A DNA stretch of 64,000 bases, taken from NCBI GenBank assembly GCA_017435505.1, contig JAFSEZ010000042.1:1-64000 (forward strand). Reading direction: 5' to 3'. This document shows, one piece after another, positions 53,003 to 64,000 of this stretch. The DNA is from Akkermansia sp. GTDB taxonomy: Bacteria > Verrucomicrobiota > Verrucomicrobiia > Verrucomicrobiales > Akkermansiaceae. The notes below the pieces were generated by a model. That model was not told the DNA's origin. It ran no database searches and saw only the letters and a program-made list of their open reading frames with translations. The translations under genes and the position numbers were made by a program. How positions within the stretch are numbered: the stretch's first letter is position 1; every line of letters starts with the position of its first letter.

Positions 53003-53530
53003 ATGTCACTCAAAATGAGCAAACGAGCAATAATAGAGTTACTGGATTCGAATGCAGCAAAGTATCGAAAAGCTCACTCTCGCAAAGCTAAAATTGAGTT
53101 TCTGAAGCAATTAGTGGAACTCACTGGTTACAAATCAACTAAAAACATTATTCGATTCTACTCTCGAGTAAGAAAACGCAAACGAGAGGAGAAGATAGGG
53201 CGTCTGCCCAAATTGCAAGCCTGCGACATTGAGCTCATAAAGTCAATTTGGTTGAAATCTGACCAACCTTGCGGTAAACGGCTCCATCTTATGCTGCCAA
53301 CGTGGCTAAATGCTTACTCAAAACGACAAGAAATTGACGAGGAGTCCCAAAGACGCATACTAAGTGTATCACCCGCAACTCCGGACAGAGTGCTACGCAA
53401 TTGCAAGGTGGATGGCATTCACAAAGCCAACAAGCAAACAATCAGCGCATTAAAGCAATCTATTCCCATTATAGATAGAACTGGCAAGATTGATGTTCCC
53501 GGGCATCTCTATGCTGATACGGTGGCCCAT
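53003..53530 (+). pseudogene. Truncated insertion-sequence transposase (DDE integrase type)
   Basis: About 175 residues survive. The N-terminus is basic and helical (IEFLKQLVELTGYKSTKNII); RVLRNCKVDGIHKANKQT leads into the start of the catalytic domain, DVPGHLYADTVAH, where the first catalytic aspartate is expected. The reading then jumps into unrelated sequence at 53522-53530 and stops at 53551. The rest of the DDE domain is missing, so the gene cannot encode an active transposase. It resembles ISNCY-like integrase/transposase genes of Verrucomicrobia. Confidence 0.65.
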
Positions 53531-53968
53531 TTCAAGTTGCAATTCAGATAGGTTGCGAAAGTAGGAGGCGTGGTACGAGGCAAAGGTGTGGCGGCAGACA
53601 TCCGGCACCCACGCGCCGCAGTAGCCGGCGGCGCGGCGCTGCGCACGCCATTTGCGTAGCCACCCTTTGGGAATCTCGCGATCCTGTTTTCGAATAGTGC
53701 GCACCCCACGTAGGGGAACCGCCCGACCGCCGCCTGTTTTGCTTGCCGTGGGGCGCACGATGACTTGTCGATCTTCCCAGTTGAAATCTGCCGCTTGCAG
53801 GCGGCACACCTCGGCGGGGCGAATGCCGCCATAGAGCATGAGCGCGAGGGATAAGCGCATATCGCGAAACTCCGGCAGCCGAGCCGTGTCACTTGGGCGC
53901 AAACCGACTTCTTCCAATAATTGTTCAGCAATGATGTTTTTATCCATAATTCGCCGTGGTTTCTTCAT
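53522..53968 (-). pseudogene. Truncated tyrosine recombinase (integrase)
   Basis: The catalytic core is recognisable: box I arginine in MLYGGIRPAEVCRLQAADFN, the strand lysine in ASKTGGG, and the box II HxxR motif in CRHTFASYHASYFRNL, ending LQLEMGH. The SAM-like N-terminal arm-binding domain and everything after box II, including the nucleophilic tyrosine, are absent. The cut coincides with the transposase cut: both share the nine bases at 53522-53530. It was probably the integrase of the 43-54 kb island or of a neighbouring element. Confidence 0.75.
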
Positions 53969-54313: not shown

Positions 54314-55969
54314 ATGGCAATAGAAGAAACAACGACAGAAAGCTGGGGCAGCCGACTGGGTGGCTCCATCAAAGGCGTTTTGGTTGGTGCCGGTCTTTTC
54401 ATTGCAGGTATCCCCCTGTTATTCTGGAACGAAGGGCGCACCGTCAAGACAACCCAAGCTTTGGAAGAAGGTGCAGCTAATTGCACGGTGGTTCCCTCCG
54501 CCGACACGGTAGATGCAGCCAATGAGGGCAAGCTCATTCACATCACCGGCACTGCGGCCACGGAAGATGTGCTGACGGACGAACTGTTCGGCGGCATCAG
54601 CATGAAGGGCATGCGACTGAGCCGCAAGGTAGAGTACTACCAGTGGGTAGAAGACTCCAAGAGCGAAACAAAGAAGAACACAGGAGGCTCTACCACAACC
54701 ACGACTACCTACACCTATTCCAAGAAGTGGGTAAGCTCCCCGGAAGATTCTTCCGAGTTCAAGGAAGCCGGCCACGAGAACACCATCCATTTTGCAGATG
54801 CGGAAGACACCACCATGTATGCTCAGCAAGCTGCCTTGGGTGCATTTGCCCTTACCCCCGGCCAGATTCAATCGATCTCCGGGCAGGAGAACGTGAAACT
54901 GGAAGGCGTGCAGTGGCCGGATTCGCTGAAAGGGCGCACCACCGTATCCGGCAACACACTCTATATCGGGCGTCCTGTGAATCCCATGCAAGCAGCCATT
55001 GCTGAAAAGGGAGCAGCCCCCCAGCTGCCGGTGGAACAGGGTTACCTGCAAATTGAGAATGAGCCCGGCAAGAATCTGCTGGCTGTGCAGGATGGCGAGA
55101 ATGTCTACGTGCAATCATCCACGGGCGATCTTTACCTGCTCGGCACAGATGAAGACGGCACTCCCATGGTGCAGTTGCGCAATGGCTCGCTCCGCAACGT
55201 GACCGGTGAGGCCGAAATGACCGGTCCCGCTCCCACATTCCCCTACCCCATTCCGGCCTCCATTCAGGTGGAGCGTCTGGGAGAATGCCCTGTGGTGTGC
55301 ATCGGCACATACGCATATGTCCGCACAAGCGACAACCGCCTGCTCTGCATCAAGCCCTATCAGGACTACTTTGTGGTGACGGATAATGGTGTCATGCGCA
55401 AGGCCGACATCATGCTGGCACCCGTGACACTGAGCGACAAGGGCACGGCAGACCCCGCCGCCCCGCAAGTGGGTGATGTGCGCATCACCTGGACCTACGT
55501 TGGCCCGCAGAAGCCCGTCAGCGTGGTGGCTGTGCAGACCGGCAACACCTTTGCCCCGTATGTATCCAAATCCAGCGGCTACAAGGTAGATTTGCTGGAA
55601 ACCGGCATCAAGACCAAGGAGGAAATGTTCCAAAACGCAGAAAATGCCAACACTTTCATGGCTTGGATTCTGCGTTTCTTGGGCTGGTTCATCATGTACA
55701 TCGGCCTGAGCATGATACTCAAGCCACTCTCTGTGCTGGGAGATGTGTTGCCCATCTTGGGTGATTTGATTGGCGTGGGTACCGGCATCATTGCCTTCCT
55801 CGTCTCAGCCGCCGTGGCGTTGCTTGTCATTGCCGTAGCGTGGGTATTCTACCGCCCGGTTTTGGGCATTGTCCTGCTGGCAGCGGCCGTCGGCCTCATC
55901 GTGCTACTCATCAAGAAGAAGAAAGGCAGCAAAAAAGAACCTGCTCCGGAAGCTCCGGCAACCGAGTAA
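54314..55969 (+). CDS. TMEM43-family membrane protein
   Basis: A 551-residue protein. After a short N-terminus the first membrane helix (GSIKGVLVGAGLFIAGIPLL) runs into FWNEGRTVKTTQALEEGA, the hallmark of TMEM43/LUMA-like proteins. A large extracytoplasmic domain (about 45-430) follows. Three or four C-terminal helices (FMAWILRFLGWFIMYIGLSM, GTGIIAFLVSAAVALLVIAV, LGIVLLAAAVGLIVLLI) lead to a Lys-rich and Ala/Pro/Glu tail. Compared with other bacterial members the soluble domain appears long, with a Thr-rich segment (STTTTTTYTYSK). The function in bacteria is unknown. The ATG at 54314 is used; longer frames are implausible. First gene of the secreted-protein cluster. Confidence 0.8.
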   Translation: MAIEETTTESWGSRLGGSIKGVLVGAGLFIAGIPLLFWNEGRTVKTTQALEEGAANCTVVPSADTVDAANEGKLIHITGTAATEDVLTDELFGGISMKGMRLSRKVEYYQWVEDSKSETKKNTGGSTTTTTTYTYSKKWVSSPEDSSEFKEAGHENTIHFADAEDTTMYAQQAALGAFALTPGQIQSISGQENVKLEGVQWPDSLKGRTTVSGNTLYIGRPVNPMQAAIAEKGAAPQLPVEQGYLQIENEPGKNLLAVQDGENVYVQSSTGDLYLLGTDEDGTPMVQLRNGSLRNVTGEAEMTGPAPTFPYPIPASIQVERLGECPVVCIGTYAYVRTSDNRLLCIKPYQDYFVVTDNGVMRKADIMLAPVTLSDKGTADPAAPQVGDVRITWTYVGPQKPVSVVAVQTGNTFAPYVSKSSGYKVDLLETGIKTKEEMFQNAENANTFMAWILRFLGWFIMYIGLSMILKPLSVLGDVLPILGDLIGVGTGIIAFLVSAAVALLVIAVAWVFYRPVLGIVLLAAAVGLIVLLIKKKKGSKKEPAPEAPATE

Positions 55970-55983
55970 CAATCAACCATCCG

Positions 55984-56005
55984 GCGGGGTGCTGCGGCAC
56001 CCCGC
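55984..56005. terminator. GC-rich hairpin after the TMEM43-like gene
   Basis: A perfect 8-bp stem GCGGGGTG/CACCCCGC with a 6-base loop, 15 bp past the stop. There is no T-run, so it may attenuate or stabilise the mRNA instead of terminating it. Confidence 0.45.
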
Positions 56006-56024
56006 AACTTATTCTGTAGCATCT

Positions 56025-56846
56025 ATGAAAACAAGCTTCTTCATGCTGGTCTCCGCATTAGTCGGGGTAGCCTACGCAGGTACAGAAACCATTCAGGAAA
56101 TGGTGCAGCGCTATGAGGGTACCCCGCACTACACAAAGCTCAACCAATACTATGAGGACATTCAGCGCACGGGAAATACCCACGCACAAGATGCCGCAGG
56201 GCGCACCATGCTGATGTATTGCTTGCAAGAGCTACCGGAGATGCACATGGCGCAGATCATACATCCCCTCCTGCTTGCAGGGATGAATCCCAATGCGGCA
56301 GATAAAACAACGGGGCGCACTCCCCTGCACCACGCAGCCCTGAGCAATGATTACCGCTTGGCCTGTCGACTGCTGGCGTTCGGCGCAGATATTCGCAAGC
56401 AAGACAAACAAGGGTACACACCTGCGCAACTTGCGAAGTTGCCCCAGCTTCAACATCTGCTGAGTACCGGCACCCCGCCCGAATTACGCAGTCAACGTGT
56501 CAAAGACCTTCACTCCAAGGCCTGCCGCAACAATGGTGCGGCACAATACGAACTGTCACGGCTCTATCGGGATGAAGCCACGGCAGAACGTATCTCCATG
56601 AGCGCATGGGTGAACAACCCGCAGGAGCCCGATTCCGATGCAGCAGAAAGCCGCTGTTGGTTGGAACAAGCTGCAGCCAATCACTATCCCCCGGCCATGC
56701 ATGATTTGGCACTTCGGCTCATGTGGGGAATCGATGGCAAGGAGAATGAAGCAGAAGCGTGCAGACTCTTGGAAGAAGCAGCAAAGGCCGGACACAAGGA
56801 ATCTATCGACTTCCTCGAAAACACCCCCATCCCCGGCGAGCCATGA
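56025..56846 (+). CDS. Secreted ankyrin/Sel1-repeat protein
   Basis: A 273-residue exported protein with a signal peptide at about 1-18 (FFMLVSALVGVAYA). Ankyrin-type repeats cover about 50-150: MLMYCLQELPEMHMAQIIHP, TPLHHAALSNDYRLACRLLA and GYTPAQLAKLPQLQHLL. The second half is Sel1-like: NNGAAQYELSRLYRDEA, then AESRCWLEQAAANHYPPAMH and EAEACRLLEEAAKAGHKESI. Both are helical protein-interaction repeats; no enzyme motif is seen. The ATG at 56025 gives the signal peptide, while the frame itself opens earlier inside the TMEM43-like gene. Its TGA overlaps the ATG of the next small gene by four bases. Confidence 0.8.
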   Translation: MKTSFFMLVSALVGVAYAGTETIQEMVQRYEGTPHYTKLNQYYEDIQRTGNTHAQDAAGRTMLMYCLQELPEMHMAQIIHPLLLAGMNPNAADKTTGRTPLHHAALSNDYRLACRLLAFGADIRKQDKQGYTPAQLAKLPQLQHLLSTGTPPELRSQRVKDLHSKACRNNGAAQYELSRLYRDEATAERISMSAWVNNPQEPDSDAAESRCWLEQAAANHYPPAMHDLALRLMWGIDGKENEAEACRLLEEAAKAGHKESIDFLENTPIPGEP

Positions 56847-57037
56847 TTGTATACGTCAACAACACCCCCATCCGGCTTTTCTCCGGAGCTACCGCACGAG
56901 AAGCCGTCCTGCGCTACTGTACAGATACAAAGCAACCTTTCACCGAACCCACATTATACGATGCTTGGGGCAACGTCATTGCCCCGGACAGCCCCATGAT
57001 TGAGGGGCGAAAAATCTACACTACTACACCACAATAA
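56843..57037 (+). CDS. Small beta-grasp-like protein, unknown
   Basis: A 64-residue protein with no signal peptide. The pattern MIVYVNNTPIRLFSGATARE, a helix (AVLRYCTD), then TLYDAWGNVIAPDSPMIEGR and a last strand KIYTTT suggests a miniature beta-grasp (ubiquitin/ThiS-like) fold. The C-terminus is not a Gly-Gly. It is translationally coupled to the preceding ankyrin gene (ATGA overlap at 56843-56846) and lies 15 bp before the phosphatase gene. Similar small proteins are, as far as I recall, found next to periplasmic 5'-nucleotidase-like genes in other gut bacteria; this needs a search. Confidence 0.55.
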   Translation: MIVYVNNTPIRLFSGATAREAVLRYCTDTKQPFTEPTLYDAWGNVIAPDSPMIEGRKIYTTTPQ

Positions 57038-57052
57038 CCCCATCTCACTACC

Positions 57053-58471
57053 ATGAAAAAAATCCCCTTTCTCTCACTCCTGGCTCTTTTGGGCAATGCC
57101 TTGGCCACCCAAGTCACCATCTTGGGCATCAACGACATGCACGCTGATATAGACAACCTGCCCCAGCTGGCAACCTATTTGAAGGCAGAGCGAGCCCAAA
57201 ATCCGGATGCACTTCTCTTATCAGCCGGCGACAACCGCACAGGCAGCCCCTATGTAGACATCGGCACCCATCCGGGAGCCCCCATGATTCAACTCATGAA
57301 CAAGCTGCGCTTCGACCTCTCCACCTTGGGCAATCATGAATTCGATGCCGGCGAAGATGCCTTGCGCTATTGCCTCAACCTGGCAGAATTCCCCTTTGTA
57401 TGCGCCAATGTCAAGGCCACATCGGGGGATGCTCTCTACTTGAAGCCGTACCAAATCTTTGAACGCGATGGGGTGCGCATCGGCGTGCTGGGGCTGGTGC
57501 AAACGGGGGACAACGGGCTACCGGATGCACACCCGGATCAGGTCAAGGCTCTCAGTTTCCGTTCGCCCTTTGAAATCGTGCGCGACTATGCCTACTTGCG
57601 GGAGCAATGCGATATCCTCATCCTGCTGACACACATTGGTTTTGAAGACGACGTGAAACTGGCACAACTCTTCCCCGAGGCAGATGCCATTATCGGCGGG
57701 CACTCTCACACCCGCGTAGAAAAAGAACATATCATCAACGGGGTTCTCATCACCCAAACGGAAAACAAGGTCAAATATCTCACCAAACTGACCTTCGATG
57801 TGGAAGATGGCAAAGTACAAAGCCGCAAGTTTGAATTCATCTCCCTGCGCAGCCTCCCGAAAGACGCCGACATGCAAGCAGCAGTGGAAAAGGTGAAAAA
57901 CAACCCCTACATGACACGCAAGCTTACCACGATTCCCTGCGACATCACCCGCCGAGAAAGCTTGGGATGCCTCATGGCCGATTCTCTGCGTTTCTACCTG
58001 AAATCCGATGTAGCGGTTGTCAACATGGGTAACGTGCGATTGGAGGAATTCCCCAAAGGACCTTTCACCGTAGCAGACTGCTACCGTCTCGATCCCTTCG
58101 GCAACAAAAACGTAGTCATGAAACTCACAGGCCGCCAGCTTGTTGATTTTCTGAATGCCATTCCCTCCACAGATCACCACGGGGCTCCCTGCGTATCCGG
58201 GCTCAGCTACAAGGCAACCAAAGCGGAGGGTGAGCTGCAACCCATGCAGATTACGGAAGCCACCATGGCAGACGGCACCCCCCTGAATCCGGATGCCACT
58301 TACACCGTGACAACCAATTCCTACCTCATGGCCACCGTTCCCAACATGCCCCAGGTAGAAACAACCACCTACGATATAGATTGTGCCAAGTGTATGATGC
58401 AATACCTTGATGGCAAAGCGGAGGTGGATTATTCCGACACCACCCGCATAGAGCTCACCATCAGCAAATAA
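57053..58471 (+). CDS. Periplasmic bifunctional metallophosphatase/5'-nucleotidase (UshA-like)
   Basis: A 472-residue exported enzyme with a signal peptide at about 1-18 (IPFLSLLALLGNALA). The metallophosphatase domain shows the full metal set: GINDMHADIDNLP, LLSAGDNRTGSP, TLGNHEFDAGEDAL, LTHIGFEDD and IGGHSHTR. The C-terminal 5'-nucleotidase domain (about 290-470) has CLMADSLRF, VVNMGNVRLEEFPKG and YRLDPFGNKNVVMKLTG, with the nucleotide-stacking region expected near GLSYKATKA. It should release phosphate from nucleotides in the periplasm, which would feed the Pst system encoded elsewhere in the window. Confidence 0.92.
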   Translation: MKKIPFLSLLALLGNALATQVTILGINDMHADIDNLPQLATYLKAERAQNPDALLLSAGDNRTGSPYVDIGTHPGAPMIQLMNKLRFDLSTLGNHEFDAGEDALRYCLNLAEFPFVCANVKATSGDALYLKPYQIFERDGVRIGVLGLVQTGDNGLPDAHPDQVKALSFRSPFEIVRDYAYLREQCDILILLTHIGFEDDVKLAQLFPEADAIIGGHSHTRVEKEHIINGVLITQTENKVKYLTKLTFDVEDGKVQSRKFEFISLRSLPKDADMQAAVEKVKNNPYMTRKLTTIPCDITRRESLGCLMADSLRFYLKSDVAVVNMGNVRLEEFPKGPFTVADCYRLDPFGNKNVVMKLTGRQLVDFLNAIPSTDHHGAPCVSGLSYKATKAEGELQPMQITEATMADGTPLNPDATYTVTTNSYLMATVPNMPQVETTTYDIDCAKCMMQYLDGKAEVDYSDTTRIELTISK

Positions 58472-58539
58472 TTCAGCACAGGGAAAACAATTTCACGAGC
58501 TCACACGCTTATTAAAGTGTGACACTACCTTTCACCGGC

Positions 58540-60294
58540 ATGAAAAGCACCCTTTGCATCGCCTTGCTGCTGGGGCTCCACACCACATGGGGAGCCCCAC
58601 CCCCGGCGTCTGCGGCAAACCACTTGATTCACTTGGATATGGCTGCCGTAGAAATAGCCCGCACCGAACTGAACGAGGCACCGAGCGGCATCTGGTACAA
58701 GCCGGAGAATCTGTCGCCCATGCAGATAAACTTTGCAGGGGGAGATACCTTTACCGCACCCACCACGTACGGAGCTGACCTGAGTTCGGACATCTGCGCA
58801 ACATACCTTCCCCAACAGGGGAGTGATACTGCGCTGGTGAAACTGACTTGCCCGGATTTCACCGCCACTGTCAAGCTGAACTTCACCGGCAAAAAGTCCG
58901 GCACAGCAGAAATCACATGGGACGAAGCGGGGGAAACCCGCCACCTGCGCGGTGCCACGTTCACCATGCGCCCGGCCGGGGAAGATGCCGGTATCATCCT
59001 GCCCATGGAGCAACTTGAGGGTGACCCACCCCTGTGGGATGATGGGCTGGCTACTATATTGAGCAATATCGAGGCATCCACCTACCGCACAGCCACAGAA
59101 AAGTTATACCAAAAGAGACTCATTTCCCTGCTGCCTTTGGTCATGGTCATGCATGATGCCTCGTACACAAACCCGGATTTCAAAGGCAACACAGCCTTAC
59201 ACTATGCGTGTGGGCTCAGTCATATCGACTTGGTGGAATGGTTGGTGAATCATGGCGCAAATTTGGAGGCGCGCACAGAGAAAGGAGCCACCGTCGATGC
59301 GTGTGTAAGCGGTCGCCACGCGGGGACTATCAAGAACCTCCTGAAGCAAGCCCGATCCGCGCGGGACATTCCCCCCGGCGGTTCCGTTGTCGATGAAAAC
59401 ACAGCCCGCTCCATGGCTTTGATGTTGGAAGCAGCTTTTGACTGCACCGACATTCGCTCGGCAGAATACCGAATACCGGAAAAAGATACCCGCGCTGAAC
59501 AAGCTGCCTTGGCTCTCTACAAATATACAAAAAGCAAGAAACAACTCCCGACCTGGATCAACAAAACAGAACCGTTGGGGAATCTGCTGGAGCTCTGCCT
59601 CCATGCAAAAATCAGCGAGAGCATGTATCTGGAAAGGTTCAACGCTCAACTTACCTGTCTGCGAAGGCAGGCGCTGGCTCAGTATTGCAACGAGGGCAAG
59701 GCACTGGCCATATTGCCGTACATGATGAGTGAACGCGAAGCCAACCACACGTGGCACGATGGGGCATCTGCCCTGTATCGCGCCGCCAAGGAGGGCAACG
59801 TGGAACTAGCCCGCTGGCTGGTTGCACACGGCATGCGCCACATCTTCAACGAACAGGGAGAAACTGTCGGAGTACCGCCGGATGCCCCCAACGCATCTGC
59901 CATCTGCGCATTGTTGGCCCCCAATCCTCCACGCGGTACACAAGGCAGCCTAGCGCCGGAACAAGTGGCCGGCAAAACGCTCCACATCTTCAACGCCGCT
60001 CACGAGCACAGTCTGAGCATCTGTTGGCAGCAGAAAAACTGCGAATCCAATGGCCACATCAAAGCGGATGAAGATTGGACTATTGAGGAAAGGTCCTACA
60101 AGCGCACGAGCGATAACACCGCTGAAGTAACGCGCCAAACACAATGGGCACCCGGTGGCAGCTACGCTGCCGGATGGAGGAATATCACCATTCAGCTCAC
60201 ATTCACCTCCGGCGAAGAAGGCACTGCCACCTATACGGAATGCAATAAGCAAGGCGAGGAGTTGACATTCACCGGCACATTCACACTCAAATAA
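58540..60294 (+). CDS. Secreted beta-domain/ankyrin protein, paralogue 1
   Basis: A 584-residue exported protein with a signal peptide at about 1-25 (MKSTLCIALLLGLHTTWGAP). The first beta-rich domain (about 26-150) ends with the family motif GTAEITWDEAGETRHLRGAT. A linker LYQKRLISLLPLV leads into ankyrin repeats KGNTALHYACGLSHIDLVEW and EKGATVDACVSG, then a longer helical stretch with another ankyrin-like unit (GASALYRAAKEGNVELARWL). A second beta-domain closes the chain, starting VAGKTLHIFNAAHEHSLSIC and ending GTATYTECNKQGEELTFTG. The ATG at 58540 fits the signal peptide better than the GTG at 58519. Function unknown; clearly related to the next two genes. Confidence 0.75.
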   Translation: MKSTLCIALLLGLHTTWGAPPPASAANHLIHLDMAAVEIARTELNEAPSGIWYKPENLSPMQINFAGGDTFTAPTTYGADLSSDICATYLPQQGSDTALVKLTCPDFTATVKLNFTGKKSGTAEITWDEAGETRHLRGATFTMRPAGEDAGIILPMEQLEGDPPLWDDGLATILSNIEASTYRTATEKLYQKRLISLLPLVMVMHDASYTNPDFKGNTALHYACGLSHIDLVEWLVNHGANLEARTEKGATVDACVSGRHAGTIKNLLKQARSARDIPPGGSVVDENTARSMALMLEAAFDCTDIRSAEYRIPEKDTRAEQAALALYKYTKSKKQLPTWINKTEPLGNLLELCLHAKISESMYLERFNAQLTCLRRQALAQYCNEGKALAILPYMMSEREANHTWHDGASALYRAAKEGNVELARWLVAHGMRHIFNEQGETVGVPPDAPNASAICALLAPNPPRGTQGSLAPEQVAGKTLHIFNAAHEHSLSICWQQKNCESNGHIKADEDWTIEERSYKRTSDNTAEVTRQTQWAPGGSYAAGWRNITIQLTFTSGEEGTATYTECNKQGEELTFTGTFTLK

Positions 60295-60303
60295 TCACAA
60301 TTC

Positions 60304-61170
60304 ATGAATTTCCTTTTTCCACAGCTACTTCTGCCCCTGGCCTTTGCCATGCATGCTGCGGCTGTCATGATACCGGCCACACTTGCGGACTCATGTCTGG
60401 TGGTGGATTTGAGCGACATCGAAATCTGCGAGGCGCAGGGCAACGCCGCGCCCCATACTGCTTGGAAGCGGAGCAGCCTTACCCCGCTTATTGTCTGCTA
60501 CCCGGAGGGCTCAAGCAATGAAATCAGCGTGCCGCACCCGGCCAATCATGAAAACATCGGCGTACCGGGCGCCCCTTACCTGCCGGATGCCACCGCCGAC
60601 TATTCCCCTTTCACCAATGGCGAAAGCAAGGGGGTACTCTACTTGGAGCATGCTGATTTCGAAATGCAAATCATCCTGCACTTTGAGAAATTGAACACGG
60701 ACGGCACATACTCCGGCAGCGCAGAGCTCACGTGGAAAGAGGCCGGAACCACCACACACATACGCCACGCCACCTTCTGCACCCGCGCTATCCAGCCCGC
60801 CGATATTCCCTTGCAACTCCCCATGCACCCCGCACACGCAGAGGGAGATGCAGACACCCACGCAACGCTGCAACAAATCCTCAGCGAGCTTCAAGGGTGG
60901 CAAACTAAAAATGCGGTAGAATCACTTTACCTGCGCCGCTTGCTCATGCTGCTGCCGCTCATCCTGGAACAAGGGGACGTAAATCTGACCACACCGGAAA
61001 CGAAAGGCAACACTGCCCTGCACTATGCCTGCGGGTTAGGACACGTGGAGCTGGTACGTGCGCTGGTGCAAGCCGGGGCCAACACCAAAGCCCGCACGGA
61101 TAAAGGCGCCACACCTCTCGACTGCGTAAGTGGCCCCCAAAGTAGGCGCATCAAAGCTCTGCTGAAATAA
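60304..61170 (+). CDS. Secreted beta-domain/ankyrin protein, paralogue 2
   Basis: A 288-residue exported protein with a signal peptide at about 1-20 (NFLFPQLLLPLAFAMHAAAV). One beta-domain (about 30-170) carries GSAELTWKEAGTTTHIRHAT, matching paralogue 1. The linker LYLRRLLMLLPLIL and ankyrin repeats KGNTALHYACGLGHVELVRA and DKGATPLDCVSG follow, and the protein ends straight after. It is the most compact version of the family and shows the minimal unit: signal, beta-domain, linker, two ankyrins. It starts 9 bp after paralogue 1. Confidence 0.75.
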   Translation: MNFLFPQLLLPLAFAMHAAAVMIPATLADSCLVVDLSDIEICEAQGNAAPHTAWKRSSLTPLIVCYPEGSSNEISVPHPANHENIGVPGAPYLPDATADYSPFTNGESKGVLYLEHADFEMQIILHFEKLNTDGTYSGSAELTWKEAGTTTHIRHATFCTRAIQPADIPLQLPMHPAHAEGDADTHATLQQILSELQGWQTKNAVESLYLRRLLMLLPLILEQGDVNLTTPETKGNTALHYACGLGHVELVRALVQAGANTKARTDKGATPLDCVSGPQSRRIKALLK

Positions 61171-61191
61171 CCCTCTGTCACCGATTCGACC

Positions 61192-62358
61192 ATGCACATG
61201 CGCTTTCTTATCCTACCGCTCCTTGCAGCAGCCTCTTGCTCCGCAGCTGTGCAAGCACCAACTGATTTGAACGATTGTGAGATTCAATTCAGCTACTCCC
61301 CCTCATGGAAATTCACCCCACTTCTCATGGGCTTCGGTGAGGCTACGCCCGGCAAAGCCAACAGCTACACCATGCGGGGAGAAAACCGCACCTACGATGT
61401 GAGTTACAGCCCCCAAGCCGCAACCGCCAAAGCGCATCTTATCATTGACGGTAAGCGGAATAAAGGCACCATCCAACTGAATTTCCACACAGCAGAAAGC
61501 GGCACGGCTCACATGAAGTGGAACGGGGCGGATTACTACGACCTCAGCTTCCGCGTGAAAGCAAGCAATACGCCCCACCACTATCTTCAGCGCATGGGCG
61601 ACCCCGTGGGAGACGTGATTCCCACTTCTTTGGCAGGCAAAGTGCTGGAAATTGATTTTGACGGGGCTTTCACCTGCCGATGGGATTCTACCACCATGAA
61701 ACCAAACTACCAAGCGTGCAAGACAGCTCCGCTGGTGGTACAATTCCCGGCATCCGGCAGCAACTTCACCTGCCAAAGACAAGGTGCGAGCCCTCATTCC
61801 GTGCAATATGAACTGCGCGGCTGCGGGGCTATCGTATCAATTATCGGCGGGCAAGATTACCATACGGAAATTTCGCTGGATTTTGCCGATTCGGAATCCG
61901 GCTTGGCTCATGTGAGCCGATTAGAGGGCGATACGCAGTGGGAAGAACGCGCCGCCCGCTTCCGCATTCGCCCTGCCACCTCCGATACCGGGTATGTGAG
62001 TTTTCTGCAAAAACCGGGGAAAGATCCGGTTCTGGCAGACCTGATACGGGGGCTGGAAAACATCACCTACCCCACAGCGGTGGAACGCCTGTACCAAAAG
62101 CGCTTGCTCGCTATCCTCCCCCAGATTGCACAAGGTGCTTCTGTCAACAGCATTATCCCCAACGCCAACGGCACCACCGCCCTGCACAATGCCTGCGGAC
62201 TCAGCCATGCGGAAATTGTGCAGTGGCTTGTTGACCACGGGGCCGACACCACGCTCAAAACCGCGAAAGGAGCCGGCGTGGATGCTTGCGTGGGTGGTAA
62301 AAATGCCAAAGCCATTCGCGCCATACTTCAAAGAAAAAAATCGCCAAATCATTTATAA
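61192..62358 (+). CDS. Secreted beta-domain/ankyrin protein, paralogue 3
   Basis: A 388-residue exported protein with a signal peptide at about 1-19 (MRFLILPLLAAASCSAAV). It has two beta-domains in tandem: the first (about 25-130) ends GTAHMKWNGADYYDLSFRVK. The second (about 148-270) starts LAGKVLEIDFDGAFTC and ends GLAHVSRLEGDTQWEERAAR. These are followed by the linker LYQKRLLAILPQIA and ankyrins GTTALHNACGLSHAEIVQWL and AKGAGVDACVGG. The second domain's LAGKVLEIDF matches VAGKTLHIFN of paralogue 1's C-terminal domain, so domain shuffling has occurred within the family. Separated by 21 bp from paralogue 2. Confidence 0.75.
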   Translation: MHMRFLILPLLAAASCSAAVQAPTDLNDCEIQFSYSPSWKFTPLLMGFGEATPGKANSYTMRGENRTYDVSYSPQAATAKAHLIIDGKRNKGTIQLNFHTAESGTAHMKWNGADYYDLSFRVKASNTPHHYLQRMGDPVGDVIPTSLAGKVLEIDFDGAFTCRWDSTTMKPNYQACKTAPLVVQFPASGSNFTCQRQGASPHSVQYELRGCGAIVSIIGGQDYHTEISLDFADSESGLAHVSRLEGDTQWEERAARFRIRPATSDTGYVSFLQKPGKDPVLADLIRGLENITYPTAVERLYQKRLLAILPQIAQGASVNSIIPNANGTTALHNACGLSHAEIVQWLVDHGADTTLKTAKGAGVDACVGGKNAKAIRAILQRKKSPNHL

Positions 62359-62375
62359 CCGAAAGCTCATCAACC

Positions 62376-63686
62376 ATGACAATCAAATTAGCTCTCTCCA
62401 TGATACCCTGGCTGGCTCTGAGTTTCAGTGCCACGGCATCTCCGCAAAAAGCCCCCCAACGTGATCTGGGGTATACGGAATACTACCTGAAAGAATTTGA
62501 AGCGGAGGTAAAGCGAGCCCAAGGCAGCGCCAACACCATGTTCCGCAATAAGAATGAAGCGCTACGCCGCGTGCAAGCACTCATGCAAGCCTACCCGGAT
62601 GACCCCGCCGTGCAGGCTCTTTACGCACGCACCCGTACGGCCCTCATGATGAGTAAGGGTAACTATAATCAGATTACCCCCGCCATGGTAGCCTACCTCA
62701 ACAATGAAAAACAACTGCGAGAGAAATATGCCCAGCTTAGTGCGGCCAAATGGCAAGAACTTCTGCAGGGGCGGGAACTTCTCGCCCAAGTCTTCCCCAC
62801 GGTAGACCCGCTCAAGAATACGCCGGAGACATCCCCCATCGATAAAACCATTGTATTGACGGATGTCAAGTACCCCGATAATCAATTTGTAGGCGGTTCC
62901 GGTGAATACATTGTCGTAGGCAAACCCTCCACCGGGTTTTATTTCGTCAATATAAGCGGGCGCGAATGGCTCGGTCCGTACGAGGCTATCAAACGATTCC
63001 GGCGCGAGGTGGATGGCTCGCTGGGTGATAGCTTCAACTTCACCGTACTGGGAAAAATCACCGGTCCGGTCATGGAAATTCCCGGCACCCGCCGCACCAA
63101 TATGGCCTGGGGCTGGGTCGTTGAGCCGGAGGTGCTTTACATAGATGGTCGCATTGTAGCAACTTTCGATGCCCAACACGAGAAGAGTGGCACCTTTGTG
63201 GAGGAAGACAAGGTAGCCGGCATCAAGGAGGGCTGGTACACGGAGAAGGATGTGCCGGATAACGCAACGCCCGAACGCGTGATGGAAATCTTCTTAGCCT
63301 CCATCAAAGAGAAAAACTACCCCCTCTACCGCAAATGCATCAACCCAGAACGCTATAAGACAGAAACAGCAGAATCCCTCTTGCGTTACCATTGGGATTT
63401 GCACCAACAGCGTCTGCATGGCGAATATGTGCATGCCACCTTCAGCGACACCAAGATTACCGTTGCCAAGGGGCATGATGATAAAAACGACTTAGAAAAC
63501 TTCTTCCTGGATGACAGCCAACGCGCTCAGCTCACCAAAATGCAAGGTGAAAAGGTAGAGTATGCCACCATCCAAAGTCAGGCATTCGATGCCAACGGCA
63601 AACAAATCGGCGTCAAGCATGCGCATAAGCTTATCCGCAAAGGCAATGGCCGCTGGTACGTGGATTCGTATGAAATCCGCTTCTAA
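62376..63686 (+). CDS. Secreted protein of unknown function
   Basis: A 436-residue exported protein with a signal peptide at about 1-22 (KLALSMIPWLALSFSATA). A helical segment (about 35-120, YYLKEFEAEVKRAQGSANTM) precedes a beta-rich middle (about 150-270, with VVGKPSTGFYFVNISGREWL and MEIPGTRRTNMAWGWVV). The C-terminal domain (about 300-436) reads RVMEIFLASIKEKNYPLYRK and ends GNGRWYVDSYEIRF, resembling the NTF2-like or 'DUF4878-like' cystatin-type fold of exported proteins. No catalytic motif is seen. It starts 17 bp after paralogue 3 and probably belongs to the same transcript. Confidence 0.65.
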   Translation: MTIKLALSMIPWLALSFSATASPQKAPQRDLGYTEYYLKEFEAEVKRAQGSANTMFRNKNEALRRVQALMQAYPDDPAVQALYARTRTALMMSKGNYNQITPAMVAYLNNEKQLREKYAQLSAAKWQELLQGRELLAQVFPTVDPLKNTPETSPIDKTIVLTDVKYPDNQFVGGSGEYIVVGKPSTGFYFVNISGREWLGPYEAIKRFRREVDGSLGDSFNFTVLGKITGPVMEIPGTRRTNMAWGWVVEPEVLYIDGRIVATFDAQHEKSGTFVEEDKVAGIKEGWYTEKDVPDNATPERVMEIFLASIKEKNYPLYRKCINPERYKTETAESLLRYHWDLHQQRLHGEYVHATFSDTKITVAKGHDDKNDLENFFLDDSQRAQLTKMQGEKVEYATIQSQAFDANGKQIGVKHAHKLIRKGNGRWYVDSYEIRF

Positions 63687-63716
63687 TAATTTGAACTTTG
63701 ACACTTTTACTAAGAC

Positions 63717-64000
63717 ATGATGAAAAATGGATTTTTATGGGTATGGGCTCTTAGCGGCTTACTGATTCTCCCCCAAACTCAAGCTCAGCAGGGCTACGAT
63801 TTCACCGAGAACGAGGGCTACGATTTTTCGGAAAATGAAGGCTATGATTTTTCGGATGATGAAGAGGAAATAGCCGCGCAAAAAAAATCAGCGGATGATA
63901 AGCGTGCTTTACAATCTCTGCTCTACAATGGAGCGCAATATGCTCTTGCCTGCCGCAAGGCATACCAAGAAGAAATTGTATGGCCCGTTTCTGCATGCTG
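63717..64000 (+). CDS. Secreted protein with EGYDFSEN repeats (truncated by the window edge)
   Basis: Open from ATG 63717 (or 63720) to the end of the window, about 94 codons with no stop. The signal peptide is FLWVWALSGLLILPQTQAQ. The mature start has three acidic tandem units, QGYDFTEN, EGYDFSEN and EGYDFSDD, followed by an acidic/lysine stretch (EEEIAAQKKSADDKRALQ) and the start of a helical domain (LLYNGAQYALACRKAYQEEI). Acidic Asp/Glu/Tyr repeats next to a signal peptide may bind calcium or act as a flexible spacer. Not otherwise recognised; the rest is outside the window. Confidence 0.6.
   Translation, partial: MMKNGFLWVWALSGLLILPQTQAQQGYDFTENEGYDFSENEGYDFSDDEEEIAAQKKSADDKRALQSLLYNGAQYALACRKAYQEEIVWPVSAC

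Follow-up and report, generated by a model that had tools for sequence, protein, structure and literature searches.

Ten adjacent genes at the 3′ end of the analyzed DNA form a conserved envelope gene cluster. Its carriers found to date are all Akkermansia gut bacteria, though only some members of the genus, and nearly all of them are known as metagenome bins. Although this gut genus has been studied intensively, the cluster matches no named system that we found. The window, by which we mean the entire analyzed stretch of 64,000 nucleotides, is the first 64 kb of contig C34 (136,896 bases) from a 2.0 Mb genome bin. Records that bear the name Akkermansia (MAGs, some of them from goat cecum) contain near-identical gene sets. 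The ten genes, designated A–J, occupy C34:54,314–65,485 and are all encoded on the plus strand. The first-pass annotation had ended the cluster at position 64,000. This boundary is wrong: gene I runs to 65,102 and gene J to 65,485 on the contig, so that the cluster extends 1.5 kb beyond the window. The same annotation was right that the genes it named are present, lie on one strand and are tightly spaced, with intergenic gaps among A–I of −4 to 68 nt and an ATGA overlap between B and C. Pfam searches also bore out the domains it had named, namely TMEM43 in A, ankyrin (Ank) repeats with a weak Sel1 match in B, Metallophos and 5_nucleotid_C in D, and ankyrins in E, F, and G. Gene B (56025–56846, plus strand) encodes an exported ankyrin/Sel1 protein (Ank_2, E = 4e-13; the Sel1 match is below the Pfam cut-off). 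By inspection, signal peptides are present on B and D–I, a lipobox on J, and no export signal on C, while A carries N- and C-terminal membrane segments. Scans for promoters (14 promoter-like sites; 9.0 expected, sd 3.0) and terminators (19 terminator-like sites; 17.0 expected) were uninformative on operon limits.

When the window proteins were compared by BLAST with fetched loci, 12 loci from nine other Akkermansia genomes proved to share the order A-(B)-C-D-(E/F/G)n-H. In these loci I and J usually follow, and the number of D genes varies between one and two and that of β/Ank genes between one and four. Two clusters are present in several genomes. This conserved order strongly supports the earlier proposal of a coherent envelope cluster, whereas a joint function of its genes we can still only infer. 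The cluster is absent from most Akkermansia, including large closed genomes. H is present in 14 of 97 relatives, the β-domain profile matches 23 of 87 relatives (all in one genus), and C, sought among 289 genomes of the phylum, occurs in Akkermansia only, save for one marginal match. The TMEM43 gene (A) and this nucleotidase (D) also co-occur: among 37 Akkermansia genomes, 15 contain both, one D only, two A only, and 19 neither (Fisher p ≈ 2e-7, an optimistic value since the test ignores phylogeny). This count includes three genomes (G001, G003, G031) that contain a C-D pair and, elsewhere, a TMEM43 gene like A beside a GAPDH gene. One genome (G029) contains D without A or C. Given the conserved order, the co-occurrence of TMEM43 and nucleotidase, and the shared modules, it is unlikely that these genes are unrelated neighbors.

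The surroundings of the cluster suggest island-like mobility. Just upstream lies the C-terminal half of a tyrosine recombinase (53450–53968, minus strand; Phage_integrase, E = 8e-9). This remnant shares 42% identity with a full-length integrase that precedes A in locus L042 and has a further relative preceding A in L075; integrases of the same family stand upstream of A in three loci. At L043:4312–16357 the cluster is bordered by an intact fabD gene on one side and, on the other, by a truncated version that is 97% identical and equally oriented, as an insertion would leave it. The flanks vary among lineages, and genome G033 shares parts of the upstream and downstream flanks of the window. Separately, the segment 48338–49354 of the window shares 95–99% protein identity with G033 (L033:1966–3039) amid diverged neighbors and is possibly mobile. 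The upstream recombinases, the several genomic contexts, and the variation in gene content would all fit a variable island on which separately useful secreted proteins form a conserved neighborhood without joint function. We consider this quite unlikely, because the order has held over deep divergence and in duplicated clusters, and because A and D co-occur even when unlinked.

TMEM43 is known mainly from human disease. Gene A (54314–55969, plus strand) encodes an inner-membrane protein of this family, with a match to PF07787 of 242 bits (curated cut-off: 23.3; E = 7e-72) and hydrophobic segments at 15–40 and 450–537. The match to the family model is split (1–117 and 116–250) around a variable extracytoplasmic insert of ~155 amino acids. 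In comparison with the other cluster type, the framework of A is about 60–76% identical and the insert about 20%. Pairwise BLAST pointed to homology between this insert and D (E = 4e-5 to 5e-7), which we rejected based on a profile–profile probability of 0.5%. Since TMEM43 was found in 12 of the 17 genera sampled, is unlinked from C-D in three Akkermansia genomes, and since a homolog of H occurs beyond the genus, the cluster could also be a TMEM43-based operon for envelope maintenance or stress with the nucleotidase as an accessory. This explanation seems unlikely to us, as it accounts neither for the diversifying β-domains nor for the co-occurrence of A and D within the genus.

Gene C (56843–57037, plus strand) encodes a protein of 64 amino acids without a signal peptide and is located almost always immediately 5′ of D. 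An alignment of 15 C sequences has a mean column identity of 62%. This protein had been labeled beta-grasp-like, which it possibly is; the label received no support from sequence searches for such a family or structure, which returned no Pfam match and no relevant PDB match. Gene D (57053–58471, plus strand) codes for an exported 5′-nucleotidase of the UshA/NT5E family with both domains (Metallophos, E = 2e-13; 5_nucleotid_C, E = 1e-22; both above cut-off), which also matches PDB entry 2z1a (E = 7e-31). It is the only enzyme recognized in the cluster. The calcineurin-type metal-ligand motifs are intact (NDMH, AGD, GNHEFD, THIG, and GGHSHT; expected: NDxH, AGD, GNHE, THxG, and GHSH). Judged by its sequence, D is probably an active nucleotidase. 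With the nucleotidase homologs found in the large closed Akkermansia genomes it shares ~31% identity. In the tree of D, the C-D-only genomes form the outgroup, and three further lineages comprise the window type and each member of the D-D tandem. Chains of CD73 are also among the PDB matches of D, and the named relatives are gut-derived MAGs. With this family membership, D might act as a bacterial CD73 that converts host AMP to adenosine, with the β/Ank proteins attaching it at the cell surface. Such host-directed purine modulation is improbable: D contains no surface anchor, our data hold no link to a host, and the cluster is missing from most Akkermansia, the large closed genomes among them.

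The three following genes encode exported paralogs that combine β-domains with ankyrins. E (58540–60294, plus strand, 584 aa) has the arrangement β-domain/Ank/helical/Ank/β-domain, F (60304–61170, plus strand, 288 aa) consists of β-domain/Ank, and G (61192–62358, plus strand, 388 aa) of β/β/Ank. The β-domain, an LYxxRLLxLLP segment, and the ankyrins are common to E, F, and G as first described, with several amendments. The second, C-terminal β-domain of E, related by profile to the N-terminal one (profile–profile probability 83%, E = 8e-6), is an addition to the earlier inventory. Both E (GTAEITWDEAG) and F (GSAELTWKEAG) retain an intact GTAxxxWxEAG signature, which is degenerate in the two copies of G (GTAHMKWNGAD and GLAHVSRLEGD). 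The LYxxRLLxLLP segment, initially taken for a linker, more plausibly belongs to the ankyrin module (helix 185–204 in the model). Finally, the ankyrins are not near-identical. Between paralogs the Ank modules are 48–58% identical and the β-domains 19–30%; between the window and its G033 orthologs these values are 82–92% and 67–83%, respectively. These identities contradict the suggestion of recent shuffling and imply that the E/F/G paralogs predate the species splits.

The β-domain matched no characterized family, and no Pfam family covers it. An AlphaFold2 model of E (14-row alignment, mean pLDDT 78, pTM 0.53) predicts meander β-domains at both termini with ankyrin helices in between. In this model the C-terminal β-domain resembles an 8-strand calycin-like barrel: it could be superimposed on 5hal over 90 residues (Z = 8.9, rmsd 3.2) as well as on a designed barrel, although Z scores near 8 may reflect only a common arrangement. 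A Foldseek search with the whole E model returned mostly ankyrins, and no row aligned the N-terminal β-domain, which was barely tested in this way. Elsewhere in the genus the β-domain occurs in standalone lipoproteins, in Ank-β or tandem proteins, and also in gene M downstream. A standalone exported β-domain protein (E = 3e-12) is encoded about 3.4 kb past J (L029:15910–16398, corresponding to C34:68910–69398). On another contig of the same genome (L030, G000:C30, 248–13203, minus strand), three successive genes code for exported caspase-like (Peptidase_C14) proteins of ~1,325–1,545 amino acids, the first of which contains two C-terminal LYQKRLLTLLP-ankyrin copies with 45–48% identity to the module of F.

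Exported ankyrins bring up the main rival explanation, a periplasmic self-protection array in which these proteins would be inhibitors of, or immunity proteins against, lytic enzymes or toxins, and their diversity would record an arms race. A precedent is Bd3460 from Bdellovibrio, an ankyrin protein for self-protection that inhibits the bacterium's own wall-cutting endopeptidases (PMC4686830). The Foldseek search with E retrieved two of its structures (5ced and 5cea; E ~0.04–0.05), and the patchy, multicopy, and partly recombining nature of the cluster would also fit. We regard this analogy as rather unlikely to hold: the Foldseek ankyrin matches are generic, PADLOC matches the ankyrin only, and a domain search of genes A–J returned no peptidoglycan hydrolase or toxin domain. 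Furthermore, an arms-race inhibitor should vary in its Ank module, which in these proteins is the part that is conserved.

Gene H (62376–63686, plus strand) encodes an exported protein of 436 amino acids that is the most conserved member of the cluster (79–95% within the genus). Searches with H gave no significant Pfam match and no significant PDB profile match, and the structure model was unusable (pLDDT 46). A distant homolog (34%) occurs in G039, which belongs to another family of the order. There (L091:7322–10279) the H homolog is directly 3′ of a gene for a large exported helical protein, a possible ancestral H-I-like pair; homology between I and this helical protein was not supported (E = 0.12). 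Gene I (63717–65,102, plus strand, ending past the window) encodes an exported protein of 461 amino acids with three acidic GYDF(T/S) repeats at the mature N-terminus. Although identity within this family ranges from 27 to 98%, and between classes from 27 to 37%, an acidic G[YF]xF[TS]-type tag follows soon after the signal peptide in all 18 of 18 members. The DNA pattern of this tag has three occurrences in the genome, all within I. J, a small lipoprotein encoded on the plus strand up to 65,485, has a homolog with a long C-terminal (T/V)TRPST repeat tail at L034:9807–10691.

A tract of ~2.5 kb over H–I (62,560 to ~65,090, plus strand) is 88–100%, and mostly 94–100%, identical to G033, while sliding nucleotide identity is mostly 66–86% over A–G and falls to about 72% past the tract. 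Values of dS against G033 are 0.04 for I, 0.23 for H, and 0.69–1.77 for the other genes. This tract is the product of recent recombination, unless one of the two assemblies is chimeric. Since dN/dS is 0.08–0.41 throughout, diversification in the cluster is to be read as relaxed constraint or old divergence, not as demonstrated positive selection. Across the cluster, conserved parts (Ank module, H, framework of A) stand beside diversifying ones (β-domains, insert of A, I).

The reading that we favor, tentatively, is a modular periplasmic apparatus for recognition and scavenging that is built around the nucleotidase and specific to some Akkermansia. A would be the inner-membrane anchor that presents a variable extracytoplasmic domain, and D would act in the periplasm, splitting nucleotides into nucleosides and phosphate. 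Since their Ank module is conserved and their barrel-like domains are divergent, E, F, and G may be adaptors: their β-domains, and those of the standalone relatives, would bind different ligands, and the Ank module would dock on a shared partner. This partner could be H or the tag of I, whose conservation, small size, acidity, and uniqueness make it a candidate ligand for the ankyrin groove. Thus assembled, the apparatus might capture nucleotides, or ligands that bear them, for processing, with variable modules swapped or diversified between species. Ligand binding, docking, complex formation, cotranscription, and the scavenging role itself are all meant as putative. The conserved order, the co-occurrence of A and D, the motifs of D, the contrast between modules, the likeness to a barrel, and the tag of I argue for the scavenging apparatus. 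Against it count the lack of any transporter or nucleoside-uptake gene within the cluster, the position of the signal-less C beside an exported enzyme, and the presence of D without A or C in G029. A more far-reaching proposal, which we consider fairly doubtful, is that the cluster encodes a new envelope system: a TMEM43-anchored periplasmic complex with interchangeable barrel receptors, a common ankyrin module on an acidic tag, and a dedicated nucleotidase. If true, this would place prokaryotic TMEM43 in a functional context; literature searches found no such context for it. The cluster unites a probably active extracytoplasmic nucleotidase, TMEM43, and exported ankyrins with what appear to be conserved docking and variable binding parts, and this division of the ankyrins leads to clear testable predictions.

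Literature searches (TMEM43 and bacteria; Akkermansia ankyrins) returned no description of this cluster. A known anti-phage defense system found no support, as the PADLOC matches (PDC-M72A, Ankyrin) were driven by ankyrins only, and the StlA ankyrin-neighbor locus (PMC3861447) is a different system. With Bd3460 the cluster has in common an ankyrin protein acting outside the cytoplasm, here as an ankyrin fold with export according to Pfam, AlphaFold2, and inspection; it differs in that it contains no endopeptidase partner gene, that a β-domain is fused to the ankyrins, and that conservation centers on the Ank module. A further comparison is with calycin/lipocalin-like 8-stranded barrels such as 5hal, whose fold the predicted C-terminal β-domain of E resembles, without a sequence family match. 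A resembles the TMEM43 (LUMA) family in its family domain and membrane segments, but this domain is interrupted by the ~155-aa insert, whereas it is contiguous in relatives from other genera. D, finally, resembles UshA and NT5E (CD73) in its two domains, metal-binding motifs, and export signal, and unlike these enzymes it is encoded within a conserved cluster alongside TMEM43 and β/Ank proteins.
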